64,000 nucleotides of DNA from Nocardia ninae NBRC 108245. Its GTDB lineage: Bacteria > Actinomycetota > Actinomycetes > Mycobacteriales > Mycobacteriaceae. Under the pieces are notes generated by a model. That model saw only the letters and a list, made by a program, of their open reading frames with translations. It searched no databases and was not told the origin of the DNA. Location of the stretch: assembly GCF_007990755.1 (NCBI RefSeq), contig NZ_BJXA01000016.1, positions 62,001 through 126,000 of the forward strand. Reading direction: 5' to 3'. Of the stretch, positions 47,219 through 54,526 are shown piece after piece. Within the stretch, counting starts at the first letter, position 1; each line of letters begins with the position of its first letter. The position numbers were made by a program, and so were the translations under genes.

Positions 47219-47554
47219 ATGGCACGCCAAGTTGTTGTCACCCTTGTCGATGACTACGACGGCAAGTCGCCAGCCGTAGAGACGGTGATCTTCGGGCTGG
47301 ATGGTGTGTCCTACGAGATCGACCTGTCTTTGCTCAACGCCAGCACCCTGCGGGGCATCTTTGAGCAGTGGACGCCCCACGCCCGCAAGGTCGGTCGTGT
47401 ACCGCGGGGCAAGCAGATCAACACCCGGCCGGCGACCGACCGGGATCGGAGTGCCGCCATCCGTGAGTGGGCGCGCAAGAAGGGCCATGAGGTGTCGAGC
47501 CGGGGACGGATTTCTGCCGAAGTTGTTGAGGCATATGAGAAGGCGAACTCGTAG
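47219..47554 (+). CDS. lsr2: Lsr2-family nucleoid-associated protein
   Basis: 111 residues. N-terminal dimerisation domain [20 protein letters not shown], then [21 protein letters not shown]-terminal DNA-binding domain [20 protein letters not shown] with the RGR AT-hook-like motif that inserts into AT-rich minor grooves. Lsr2 silences horizontally acquired AT-rich DNA. Carried on a mobile island it is probably a second copy that represses island genes or eases establishment. ATG 47219 with GGAGGAAATTTC ahead. Confidence 0.92.
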
Positions 47555-50650: not shown

Positions 50651-51334
50651 GTGGCATTGTCCCTAGTAGTCCCCATATTTGGCCCGCCAGCCGCTGGCAA
50701 AACAACCCTGACGCTGCGACTCGGATGCGATCCCGGACGCCGGATCTTTCGGTTGCGGGAGCACATATCCAAAGAAGCGCTCGCCGCGACGGCCGCCAGC
50801 AGCGAGCGGCTGGGCTGGATCGATGAGTTCACGGTGAGCGAAGCGGTGCGCTCGTACTTCGCAGGCGCCGCGTCCAACCCCGGTATCCACACCGTGCTGC
50901 TGGACAACTTCCCCGGTTCGGCGAACCAGGTCGACCAGCTGCTGGCCGCCGTCAGAGCGGCGGCACCGGCCTGCCACGTCGAGGCGATCGAACTCCTGAC
51001 CGACGCCAAAACCCTGAAGCAGCGATCACGGAGCCGGAAGGTCTGCCATCGCTGTGAGCGCGATCCGATCTCCGATCCTCGGTTGCCGGCTATTCCGAGC
51101 GACGACGACCCCTGGCAGTGCGCGCATTGCCGCGGAGTGCTGCATCCGAGACGCGGGGATTCGCCTCGCCTGTTCAAGGCGCGGATGCAGCGCTATCACC
51201 AGGCGGCAGCCGGTATCCGCGCCGGATTTACCGATTCCGGTGTCGCCGTCACCCAACTCGACACCACCAACACCATTGACGGGGCGGCGAATCTGCTTGC
51301 TCCGCTGCTTATCTCCCGGAGTGTCTCGCTATGA
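50651..51334 (+). CDS. Adenylate-kinase-like P-loop kinase with zinc-ribbon lid
   Basis: 227 residues. Walker A PIFGPPAAGKTTLTLRLGCD; HTVLLDNFPGSANQVDQLLA matches the NMP-kinase DGFPR-like region (here DNFPGS). The lid carries RKVCHRCERDP and WQCAHCRGVLHPRRGDS, two CxxC pairs as in zinc-type adenylate kinase lids, then RLFKARMQRYHQAAAGIRAG as in the YHxxT region. It is not the housekeeping adk, which is normally next to secY. It likely phosphorylates a nucleotide-like intermediate. GTG 50651 with AGGAAAGGGG upstream; ATGA overlap with the radical SAM gene. Confidence 0.82.
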   Translation: MALSLVVPIFGPPAAGKTTLTLRLGCDPGRRIFRLREHISKEALAATAASSERLGWIDEFTVSEAVRSYFAGAASNPGIHTVLLDNFPGSANQVDQLLAAVRAAAPACHVEAIELLTDAKTLKQRSRSRKVCHRCERDPISDPRLPAIPSDDDPWQCAHCRGVLHPRRGDSPRLFKARMQRYHQAAAGIRAGFTDSGVAVTQLDTTNTIDGAANLLAPLLISRSVSL

Positions 51335-52476
51335 CCACTGTTGATCTGCCCGCCCCCAGCTTGAGAACGAATAGCGACGGCTACGGCCATGGCCGAATGC
51401 CACGCGGCGGCAATCTCCCCGAACCGGATCGCATCGACCGTGTGGCCTATGGCCGGTTCCGCAACGTCTACCTCTACATCACCGAAGCCTGCCAACTGCG
51501 CTGCGAGCACTGCTACATGGGGGAACGGCTGGACCGTGCGCTCAAGATGCCGCTGCCGCAGATCGTGGACACGCTCACCACCTGGCGGCGGATGGGCGGC
51601 GACAAATTGACCATCCTCGGTGGTGAACCGACCCTGCACCCGCACTACTGCGAGGTGATCCGCCTGAGTCGCAAGCTCGGCTACGGGCACGTCATCACCA
51701 CCACCAATGCCCAGAAGCCGGCCCTGCGACGGTTCCGCCAACTCGAACCTGACGACTTCGCCTACATCCAGGTCAGTCTGGACGGCGGCAGCGGCGAGAG
51801 CCATGACGCGATTCGCGGTGCGGGCACCTTTACTCAGGCGCTGGAAACCACAGCCGAAGTCACCCGGCGCGGCTTCGACGCCCGCATCATCTGCACAGTC
51901 AGCAAGGCGAATGAGCGAGACGTGCTGCAACTGCTCGACATCGCCGATCACCTGGGCGTCAGTCTGGTGAAGTTCCATGTCTTTTCGACCATCGGCACGG
52001 GGCACGGCAACGCGGATATGGCGATGAATCCGCTGGAGTGGGTCACATTCTGCGACCGCCTGAATGAGGTTGCGCCGCAATACAAGACGCGCGTGTGGTA
52101 CCAGCCGACCTACGCCCGGCGCGATCAGATGGAGCGTTACGCGGCCGAAGGCTACCAAGGATGCATCGGCCGGACGCTGGATCGGATTTCAATCTTTCCG
52201 GACGGCCGCTGCTATGTCTGCTCGTTCCTGTTCGACACCGAGCTGCACTTCGCCCAGATGGTCGACGGCCAGGTGCAGCTGAACCACGGCACCAATGAGT
52301 TCGATTTGTTTACGAGCGCCTTGGCCGAAAGTTCCTGCGGCGGTTGCAAAGCCAGTGCATGCCAGGGCGGCTGCCCGGCCGAGGAACTGGTGATGGGCAG
52401 CGCCTCGTGCACGGCCTACGACGACATCGTGCCGATCTGCCGGTTGTGGAAATCCAGCGCCAAGCCCGAGGAATGA
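51331..52476 (+). CDS. Radical SAM/SPASM-domain protein
   Basis: 381 residues. The 4Fe-4S SAM motif is CQLRCEHC (CxxxCxxC) in VYLYITEACQLRCEHCYMGE, with the GGEPTLHP motif after it. The C-terminal SPASM-like region has the Cys cluster GRCYVC, CGGCKASACQGGCPAEE, SASC and PICRLW for extra clusters. SPASM enzymes modify peptides (sactipeptides, mycofactocin, cross-linked RiPPs) or carry out anaerobic maturation. Coupled to the kinase, followed by a cupin-like gene and an 11-codon ORF. The peptide substrate hypothesis rests on that context. Confidence 0.93.
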   Translation: MTTVDLPAPSLRTNSDGYGHGRMPRGGNLPEPDRIDRVAYGRFRNVYLYITEACQLRCEHCYMGERLDRALKMPLPQIVDTLTTWRRMGGDKLTILGGEPTLHPHYCEVIRLSRKLGYGHVITTTNAQKPALRRFRQLEPDDFAYIQVSLDGGSGESHDAIRGAGTFTQALETTAEVTRRGFDARIICTVSKANERDVLQLLDIADHLGVSLVKFHVFSTIGTGHGNADMAMNPLEWVTFCDRLNEVAPQYKTRVWYQPTYARRDQMERYAAEGYQGCIGRTLDRISIFPDGRCYVCSFLFDTELHFAQMVDGQVQLNHGTNEFDLFTSALAESSCGGCKASACQGGCPAEELVMGSASCTAYDDIVPICRLWKSSAKPEE

Positions 52477-52485
52477 GGAACCGAC

Positions 52486-53139
52486 GTGGACGAGATGGAC
52501 CGCATCGCGGAGAACCTGTGTTGGATCGACTGGAACGACATCGACGATGTTGAACTCAACTGCCGCGAAGCCTTGAATGAACTCGCTGCCGAGCCCGGAA
52601 TCGTCCGTGCACGGCTGGACGATCTGCCCAACCGGCCGGACCTGATGGCTATGTGCGAGCACTACGACATCCTGGACAAGATCGTGCTGCACAGCGGCGA
52701 CAATCCCGACATCCGCATCCGGCTGCACATCTTCTTGCCCGGCTACTTCGACCGGCCACACAACCACCGCTGGTCGTACGCCAGCCGCATCCTGCGCGGC
52801 CAGTACCGGCACTTTCTGTTCGGGAATGCCGAGGTGGATGAGCAGGTGGAGCCGAACAAGCTGCCAGTACTGCATGTCCGGGAGGAACCGGTCGGCACCG
52901 CCTACGCCCTGCACCACTCGATGGTCCACGCGGTAGTGGCCGAGCCCTACACCGTGAGCCTGGTGATCCGCGGCCCCGCCGTGAAGGACCGCTTCTTGGT
53001 GATGGACCGAAAGACCGGCGAGGCGTGGTGGCAGTACGGCCAGAAGGACGAGTCGGCGGAGGAGACGGCGCGCAAGCGAATGGGAGCGGAACGGCTACGG
53101 GAGGTGAGCGACCAGCTCACCGAGTGGAAGTTGTTCTAG
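52486..53139 (+). CDS. Cupin-like protein of the radical SAM operon
   Basis: 217 residues. Core IRIRLHIFLPGYFDRPHNHR then WSYASRILRGQYRHFLFG, and GTAYALHHSMVHAVVAEPYT followed by VSLVIRGP. These segments align with proteins A-C of the terpenoid locus: PH-x-H, ILRGxYxH, SxVH and RGP are shared. N-terminal LCWIDWNDIDDVELNCREAL also matches the IDWxD(L) start of the other family members. GTG 52486 with GAGGA upstream. A metal-dependent tailoring enzyme is plausible. Confidence 0.78.
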   Translation: MDEMDRIAENLCWIDWNDIDDVELNCREALNELAAEPGIVRARLDDLPNRPDLMAMCEHYDILDKIVLHSGDNPDIRIRLHIFLPGYFDRPHNHRWSYASRILRGQYRHFLFGNAEVDEQVEPNKLPVLHVREEPVGTAYALHHSMVHAVVAEPYTVSLVIRGPAVKDRFLVMDRKTGEAWWQYGQKDESAEETARKRMGAERLREVSDQLTEWKLF

Positions 53140-53244
53140 CGCCACCAATCTCGATGCGCAGCGGCTGCTGACAGCGCGCGGCGCTCACCAGCCTGACACT
53201 GCCCTGCCACTTGGTCAGGGCCGACATGAAGGGAGGTGACACTA

Positions 53245-53280
53245 TGGGCGGCAACGGCTTCACTGGCGGAAACGGCTAGT
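53245..53280 (+). CDS. Candidate 11-residue precursor peptide MGGNGFTGGNG
   Basis: ATG 53245 to TAG 53278-53280. It is preceded by GGGAGGTGA (53232-53240), about the best possible ribosome site, with correct spacing. The peptide holds two GGNG repeats flanking Phe-Thr. An in-frame ATG at 53227 would give a 17-residue form, MKGGDTMGGNGFTGGNG, but the ribosome site lies inside it, so the short form is preferred. It is the last ORF of the kinase-radical SAM-cupin operon and is followed by a perfect 15-bp terminator. A radical SAM gene, SPASM domain and tiny Gly-rich ORF together suggest a RiPP precursor without a conventional leader. Not proven to be translated. Confidence 0.55.
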
Positions 53281-53299
53281 GCGACGTGAGTGATCGTAG

Positions 53300-53337
53300 A
53301 AATGGCGAGGACCCACTCGGGTCCTCGCCATTTCTTC
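53300..53337 (+). terminator. Strong intrinsic terminator of the radical SAM operon
   Basis: Perfect 15-bp stem AAATGGCGAGGACCC (53300-53314) with GGGTCCTCGCCATTT (53319-53333), loop ACTC and a T-rich tail. It ends the operon 20 bp after the 11-codon ORF, showing that the ORF is inside the transcript. Confidence 0.9.
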
Positions 53338-53383
53338 GCTCTATGCCCGCGCGCCGCGACTTGATACAATAGTTGCGACATAT

Positions 53384-54526
53384 ATGAACGACACTCTGCA
53401 CCGCTTCCAACGAACCAAGAAGATCCTCGCCGGTCTGGTGCTGGTGGTCGCTGGAGCCTCGTTCATAGCGGTCGGCAAGTCCATCCCGACAATGCGAGAG
53501 TTGGCATGGCTTGGCGTCATCCCGTGGAGTGAACTGGGCGCCGTACTGATCGGCGCCGGAGTCTTCTCCATCTGGCTCGATGCGTACTTCGAACGTGAAA
53601 AACGGGAAGCCGACGACGAACGCCTCCGGCGGTTATTCGTGGAGCAAGCGCCCGCGATGAAGGCGGCCGTGATCAAGGGGTTCGCCTTCGAAGATGAGGA
53701 CTTGCGCCGCGTCGCAACGCCCGAACTGCTCGACAGCATCATCGGCAATAGCTTGGCAATGCGCCTCCAGGACAAGGACTTTGCGCGCGAGCTCTACGCC
53801 GACATTCGCGACCAAGCAGTGAAGTCTGTGGAGCGCTGGCACGATGTCAAGATTTCGATCCGGTTGAGCACCTTTGGGCCATCACCTGACGGGCCCGCGG
53901 TCGGGAAGCAGTCGACTGCTGCTCCATCGCCGATGGTCATCACTGTGCGCCACGAGTACACCACCGTGCCCTCAAGTCGGGTCAGGCGATTCGTATCCGT
54001 GTCGGACATTGATGAATACCGGGAGCTGGCGCAGGATCCCGCTTCCACCTTCGCGTGGTACTACCGTCCAACGAGCACGCTGGACGCTGGCTCGAAGGAG
54101 GCGTTCGAACTGGTGCAGTTCACGGTCGACGGTGAAGAACGGCCGATTCGCCGCAGCGCACGCAAGGGATCTCAGACGTACACGGTCAACCTCGATATCC
54201 CTGAGGATGAGCGACGGCAACCGCGAACGATCTCTTACACCTACCGTCTCCAACCAGCGCCGCAGAACCGCCTACTGCACCTCGACGTGGAGCAACCGTC
54301 CCGCGGCATCGACATCGAGCTCGACTACACCGACGCGGACGTCGCCTACGTCAATATGGTCGACTTCATCGCGAGCAGCCAAAAGGGCATCGTTACAAGG
54401 ACACCGGATACGGTGCCCGGCAGAGTGGTGGGCTTGCACTTCGACGGGTGGGCGATGCCGCGCAGCGGAGTTGCCTTCGTTTGGGTGATGAACGATGACC
54501 TCGTAGAAGAACGCCAGCGCCCATGA
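53384..54526 (+). CDS. Two-helix membrane protein with large cytosolic domain
   Basis: 380 residues. Two N-terminal membrane helices: ILAGLVLVVAGASFIAVGKS and LGAVLIGAGVFSIWLDAYFE. The rest is soluble and beta-rich (ISIRLSTFGPSPDGPAVGKQ, RTISYTYRLQPAPQNRLLHL, GIDIELDYTDADVAYVNMVD). No family recognised. A membrane anchor with a cytosolic effector-like domain is a common form of abortive-infection proteins, but no catalytic motif is seen. ATG 53384, very close to a TACAAT box at 53365-53370, so the leader is short. Confidence 0.65.
   Translation: MNDTLHRFQRTKKILAGLVLVVAGASFIAVGKSIPTMRELAWLGVIPWSELGAVLIGAGVFSIWLDAYFEREKREADDERLRRLFVEQAPAMKAAVIKGFAFEDEDLRRVATPELLDSIIGNSLAMRLQDKDFARELYADIRDQAVKSVERWHDVKISIRLSTFGPSPDGPAVGKQSTAAPSPMVITVRHEYTTVPSSRVRRFVSVSDIDEYRELAQDPASTFAWYYRPTSTLDAGSKEAFELVQFTVDGEERPIRRSARKGSQTYTVNLDIPEDERRQPRTISYTYRLQPAPQNRLLHLDVEQPSRGIDIELDYTDADVAYVNMVDFIASSQKGIVTRTPDTVPGRVVGLHFDGWAMPRSGVAFVWVMNDDLVEERQRP

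Follow-up and report, generated by a model that had tools for sequence, protein, structure and literature searches.

Which neighbour does an open reading frame of only 11 codons belong to, and what may its peptide do, when it stands between a radical SAM operon and the gene of a protein of no known family? This question is raised by the micro-ORF MGGNGFTGGNG of Nocardia ninae NBRC 108245 (contig NZ_BJXA01000016.1), which lies in the 64,000-nucleotide stretch of DNA analysed here, called the window in the following. An initial annotation had read it as a RiPP precursor of the adjacent radical SAM enzyme. Our comparisons point instead to the downstream side: the micro-ORF and the membrane protein gene behind it appear to form a conserved pair, normally with a divergent small XRE gene, and at the level of sequence the conservation of the micro-ORF is strongly supported. 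The features concerned are as follows.

50651-53139, + strand: neighbouring operon for an adenylate-kinase-like P-loop protein, a radical SAM protein and a 217-aa protein; outside the micro-ORF system
51331-52476, + strand: radical SAM gene (PF04055, 2.9e-19)
52486-53139, + strand: gene of the 217-aa protein, no Pfam or NCBIfam match
53230-53239, + strand: ribosome binding site AGGGAGGTGA of the micro-ORF, read from the sequence; similar sites precede homologous ORFs
53244-53279, + strand: micro-ORF MGGNGFTGGNG, 11 codons, ATG at 53244, TAG stop, read from the sequence
53298-53314 / 53319-53335, + strand: perfect hairpin of 17 bp with a 4-nt loop, 18 nt past the micro-ORF stop; probable transcription terminator of the unit
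53365-53370, + strand: TACAAT, -10-like box of the membrane protein gene (near-leaderless start), a putative promoter element
53384-54526, + strand: partner gene for a 380-aa membrane-anchored protein of no known family (alignment, hydropathy and a low-confidence AlphaFold2 model)

Reading the sequence directly confirmed the 11-codon ORF and its ribosome site, in which GGAGG ends 7 nt 5' of the ATG; its stop codon ends at 53279 and not at 53280. An alternative in-frame ATG at 53226 would yield MKGGDTMGGNGFTGGNG and has no comparable ribosome site. The hairpin had been described as a perfect terminator of 15 bp; it is perfect, with 17 bp, and a second computation gave 23-nt arms with 91% complementarity. 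Since its tail, TCGCTCTA, is poor in T, we speak of a probable terminator, and a simple terminator scan did not list the hairpin at 53298-53335.

The upstream gene described as encoding a SPASM radical SAM enzyme does encode a radical SAM protein, as its PF04055 match indicates; to SPASM families it has long matches that stay below the cutoffs, and no NCBIfam cutoff was reached. The gene between it and the micro-ORF is also present; the label cupin-like, however, finds no counterpart in Pfam or NCBIfam. Relatives of the radical SAM gene were fetched as 36 loci from named genomes, mostly Nocardia, and in 28 of them the radical SAM gene is immediately followed by a homolog of the 217-aa gene; these 28 formed the operon test set. 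Behind the homologous kinase/radical-SAM/217-aa operon, a comparable short ORF was found in 0 of these 28 loci; one loose GGSG match, in L050, belongs to a 27-aa ORF that lies some 700 nt further downstream and has no clear ribosome site. The membrane protein gene was not found in any of 35 radical SAM loci (up to 13 kb each). Because both are absent from the homologous loci, the micro-ORF and the membrane gene look like an insertion beside the operon. Adjacency in this single genome speaks for a RiPP precursor of the radical SAM enzyme, whereas none of the 28 homologous operons carries such an ORF and the ORF accompanies a different gene in 41 of 48 loci; the conservation pattern contradicts the proposal, which we regard as very improbable, and in the window we see no link between micro-ORF and radical SAM gene beyond position. 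The operon itself, together with a divergent NsdA-family regulator, is conserved in most of the 35 loci, mostly Nocardia, and L056, L059 and L062 carry about 1.5 kb extra between the radical SAM gene and the third gene.

The micro-ORF was followed through its partner. Homologs of the membrane protein occur in 14 of 150 genomes of the genus, the window's own included. With fragments included, matches came from 15 of 298 genomes of the order, 16 of 394 of the class, and 10 of 35 and 20 of 249 genomes of two families; a phylum-wide sample of 346 returned the window's own genome and no further member. The window protein had no match among PLSDB plasmids, and viral contigs gave one relative, without upstream DNA, and three further scans that were empty. 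A ribosome site with a short ORF stands upstream of the partner homolog in 13 of the 15 genus loci other than the window. The genus peptides are MGGNGLTGGNG, MSGGNG, MGGGNGFFGGGNG (three loci), MSGGSGFVSGGSGK, MGGDGD (two), MGGDSD, MGGDGSGK, MGGGDGFIGGGDG, MGGGSGFFGGGSGII and MGGDGFLG; the order, class and family searches added MNGGGG, MSKTSGGGG, MRIAMGGGGGGGGTGK, MTGGEGS, MTLRSGGDGGGGGGTGG, MRNAFSGGGGDT, MRIAISGGGGGI and others. Units were found in at least seven actinobacterial families, and they share one anatomy: a ribosome site, then 6-36 codons (mostly 6-20) for a mostly glycine-rich peptide, typically with GG followed by G, N, D, S or E and then G. A DNA search with positions 53140-53340 against 148 genus genomes, too insensitive for diverged units, returned the window itself and matches of 25-39 bases outside the ORF in three others.

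For counting, the loci (given here by L numbers) were reduced to 48 distinct ones, the window included. Fragments without the N-terminus and broken genes (L085, L111, L114, L115, L126, L128-L132, L135, L136, L184-L186, L188), second matches of places already counted (L117, L119, L167, L175, L180-L182, L187) and L116, which lacks upstream DNA, were dropped beforehand; L078, whose N-terminus is replaced, and L113, at about 20% identity, were kept and counted as lacking a micro-ORF. An automated rule (ribosome-site motif, 5-40 codons, GG motif, at most 260 nt upstream of the membrane gene) is satisfied in 38 of the 48 loci, against 0.53 expected in dinucleotide shuffles. L112 and L118 were recognised by eye, and L172, whose unit lies about 700 nt upstream and thus outside the 260-nt rule, was added afterwards, which brings the total to 41 of 48. 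By the rule, the micro-ORF persists down to 26% partner identity (L110); the less typical peptide of L112 was seen at 23%. A chance ORF might be suspected from a mere 11 codons; the excess of 38 loci over 0.53 contradicts it, and we give it next to no credence. That the micro-ORF is a real and conserved gene, if one that standard gene callers would miss, as had been predicted, is strongly supported by its recurrence in 41 of 48 partner loci. Two variants were also seen: in one clade (L103, L104, L118, L133) the ORFs have 31-36 codons, an MSGG start and a longer tail, basic or amphipathic-looking and not rich in glycine, with no strong hairpin behind them; in L109, L112 and L183, among the most distant members, the micro-peptides end in KK or KKK.

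The same rule was also run on 328 regions in front of other ORFs from 34 larger contexts. It matched 4 times: one match is the micro-ORF that belongs to a membrane gene, one falls within such a gene, one is a second unit (L193) and one is unrelated. When ORF and hairpin were required together, a stricter scan of 209 partly overlapping sequences (2.8 million bases over the two strands) found 31 distinct matches, of which 30 adjoin the membrane gene. We also made an RNA model of the unit from a single clade and searched 120 genomes of one family with it; matches came from 14 genomes, and in 5 of these there are real units, each beside a membrane gene. Of the model's 19 matches, 13 fell outside known units or repeated them on the other strand; these 13 are plain hairpins, ends of longer genes or a known hairpin read from the opposite strand. 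Diverged units escape the model, as genome G437 shows: its membrane gene and micro-ORF are known, and it gave no match. Thus the unit is self-contained and yet, as far as seen, tied to the membrane gene.

The pattern of substitution is that of a coding sequence among the closest pairs. Between the window and its closest relative, L073, there are six synonymous codon differences and one that changes the amino acid, all at third positions, and L075, L076 and L086 show six synonymous differences and zero replacements. In all 31 pairs compared, some of them distant and with overlap between pairs, synonymous differences prevail only modestly: 90 synonymous against 78 non-synonymous codons, and 122 third-position against 86 first- and second-position differences. 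Stop codons vary, and lengths change by whole codons. Translation of the micro-ORF is well supported by these comparisons.

Behind the stop codon, a hairpin of at least 9 bp lies within 95 nt in 32 of 40 units (29 of 40 for at least 12 bp), compared with 9.5% of shuffled spacers reaching 9 bp; the hairpins follow the stop at a median of 20 nt and have a median energy of -31 kcal/mol, and an uninterrupted 9-bp hairpin is absent in 8 of the 40 units. Their tails are often T-poor, so that here too a terminator function is probable at most. The hairpin sequence is alike inside one clade and differs widely between clades. Membrane genes mostly have a putative promoter element of their own, as 36 of 48 have TANANT in the 36 nt before the start codon, compared with 19 of 346 other ORFs from the same contexts. 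Operator-like repeats, such as AATATCCcaatttaGGATATT, occur 5' of micro-ORFs.

Of the 41 loci with a micro-ORF, 38 have a divergent small XRE gene (found with an HMM from seven seeds, on the opposite strand and at most 1.5 kb away), and of the 7 loci without a micro-ORF, 0 have one; the three carriers without an XRE gene are the window, L102 and L106, no locus has XRE only and seven have neither. A first scoring had given 37 of 40 and 1 of 8, and that one, L172, proved to carry a micro-ORF. Fisher's test gives p = 1.6e-6, which is not corrected for kinship; when kinship is considered, there are 4 independent pairs, with a mean of 3.3 in the same direction and none opposite, so the linkage rests on few independent events and is not significant. 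On a tree of 44 membrane proteins (L078, L084, L113 and L127 left out), the XRE type has to change 13 times among four states, one of them 'none', while most members retain the micro-ORF; the sister loci L118 and L133, from a single genome, differ in XRE type. A query with an XRE protein in 49 genus genomes gave weak, general HTH matches only.

Clustering of neighbours in 34 contexts, with ORFs of 80 aa or more, gave XRE/HTH proteins in 28 (larger HTH proteins included), Lsr2-like proteins in 11, and every other cluster in at most 4. The Lsr2-like genes in 11 of 34 membrane-gene contexts, 5 of them confirmed by Pfam, are an observation in their own right, and in the window we take 47219-47554 to be such a gene. 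Two Nocardia loci, L097 and L101, have a Gabija-type GajA gene no more than about 3 kb away from the membrane gene, and L195 has type I restriction genes nearby. The neighbour scans covered 110 of 140 listed proteins, themselves the nearest of 362 called ORFs. We make no claim of a defence island, because control flanks of radical SAM loci match a similar number of PADLOC families, 162 against 188 (best 25 of each).

By hydropathy, 44 of 44 partner proteins carry one or more hydrophobic segments at the N-terminus, and a second one exceeds the threshold in at most 19 of 44. Basic residues flank these segments, which suggests that the soluble body is cytosolic. After the segment or segments, the modelled protein is probably helical and then has a beta-rich soluble part; because the AlphaFold2 model is poor (two-sequence alignment, mean pLDDT 53), no fold is claimed. 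Among 22 members there was no significant match to Pfam, PADLOC or PDB sequences, the best effector match being Cap15_CD_rec at E 0.056 in 1 of 22, which is not significant. Four intact membrane genes, L105, L121, L125 and L176, have neither micro-ORF nor XRE gene; thus the peptide would not be strictly required, an obligate antitoxin is unlikely, and a trigger or modulator of the membrane protein is the likelier role.

Three further explanations have to be weighed. The micro-ORF could be a cis-acting leader peptide, which together with the hairpin forms an attenuator setting read-through into the membrane gene, for example by sensing glycyl-tRNA or arrest. The arrangement invites this idea, as in almost all loci with a unit it immediately precedes the membrane gene, with a terminator-like hairpin in between and many glycine codons. 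Complementarity between the leader and the hairpin 5' arm is at chance level, however (mean z 0.17 over 32 units), and an attenuator with an antiterminator finds no support for that reason and was rejected. The membrane gene, moreover, mostly has its own -10-like box, and position is not fixed: in L172, a 134-aa ORF on the opposite strand separates the unit from the membrane gene; in L108, a second unit (MGLSGGSGGT) stands behind the membrane gene and is followed by opposite-strand genes, with no same-strand gene directly behind; and a second unit, MRIATSGGGGGT, stands behind the membrane gene of L174 (1313, minus strand) / L193 (3564-4874). The gene after MRIATSGGGGGT presumably encodes a PD-(D/E)XK nuclease and had no PADLOC match. 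We consider a cis leader unlikely.

Alternatively, the short transcript could act as a small regulatory RNA, with the ORF incidental or stabilising. A short hairpin-ended unit with its own control region would suit this, as would the likeness of hairpins inside one clade and the modest synonymous excess over all compared pairs; the closest pairs, however, differ mostly at synonymous positions, lengths change by whole codons, hairpins diverge widely between clades, and an Rfam search of the window gave six matches, all below gathering scores, and thus no known RNA family. A regulatory RNA is improbable on this evidence. A secreted signal or RiPP-like product, exported or modified by enzymes encoded elsewhere in the genome and with the membrane protein as its receptor, exporter or immunity factor, would fit the existence of extremely short leaderless precursors, namely the five-residue biarylitides (PMC13417212, PMC12951456), but among the neighbours in 34 contexts (ORFs of at least 80 aa) neither a modifying enzyme nor a transporter is conserved, and we hold it to be distinctly unlikely.

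We therefore favour, with a probability of roughly 45%, the reading of the micro-ORF as an XRE-controlled, trans-acting micropeptide, overproduced from a short message like that of microcin C mccA and acting on the membrane protein. It is the match with the mccA layout that leads us to propose overproduction under XRE control and action in trans. The displaced units of L172, L108 and L174 also speak for action in trans. The membrane protein would be present in small amounts, its gene being read from a near-leaderless promoter of its own. When XRE repression is relieved, a short message ending right behind the micro-ORF would be made, and its repeated translation would give a large excess of unprocessed peptide, which may then trigger or restrain the membrane protein by acting in trans on its soluble part. 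The setting would possibly be a stress or defence response, and a defence role is only a guess; in the window copy no XRE regulator is present. In a bolder form, to which we lend somewhat less credence, the system may be a new kind of two-component switch: glycine-rich peptides, some encoded by no more than six codons, would be used unprocessed, would be made in excess from a message like that of mccA whose XRE repressor can be exchanged, and would gate a constitutive effector that is membrane-anchored and of an undescribed family.

The micro-gene family is apparently undescribed. In our searches, neither the unit nor the partner protein had a significant match in Rfam, Pfam, NCBIfam or PADLOC, and the titles and abstract openings of the open-access literature revealed no such family, an absence that is not conclusive. 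Six-codon genes (MSGGNG, MGGDGD, MNGGGG), as members of a gene family that is conserved in several families of actinobacteria, would rank with the shortest conserved genes on record, and gene finders would pass over them. With many homologs, one constant partner and one regulator, the set offers a ready-made case for asking what an unprocessed six-residue peptide can do in the cell; it also draws attention to an undescribed family of membrane proteins and its cognate micro-gene.

Known systems resemble this one in parts. Attenuator leader peptides are encoded by a short ORF that is followed by a terminator and then the gene; the order of short ORF, hairpin and gene is shared, whereas here antiterminator pairing is lacking, the unit can be separated from the gene or stand behind it, and it is linked to XRE. 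Abortive-infection effectors such as Cap15 or 2TM CBASS combine N-terminal membrane segment(s) with a soluble domain and are patchily distributed, as the partner protein does and is; it differs in having no significant sequence match to them and no cyclase among its conserved neighbours. Biarylitide-type precursors reportedly have five residues, no leader and a dedicated P450 that makes the product (PMC13417212, PMC12951456); they share with our peptides the lack of a leader and a gene too short for automatic annotation, and they differ by the P450, since no modifying enzyme is conserved beside the micro-ORF. In layout, the system matches microcin C mccA. No MccB-type enzyme or exporter is conserved beside our unit, as judged from the neighbour clusters of 34 contexts, and the peptides here are glycine-rich and of variable length, with a membrane-anchored partner and a divergent XRE gene. 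The mccA report describes a seven-codon gene followed by a terminator before mccB, where termination yields a short, monocistronic, ribosome-bound message and the peptide in large excess, by reiterative translation that falls as the ORF is lengthened (PMC6495379). Our unit shares with mccA an ultra-short ORF, a ribosome site and a terminator-like hairpin (at least 9 bp in 32 of 40 units) before the next gene.
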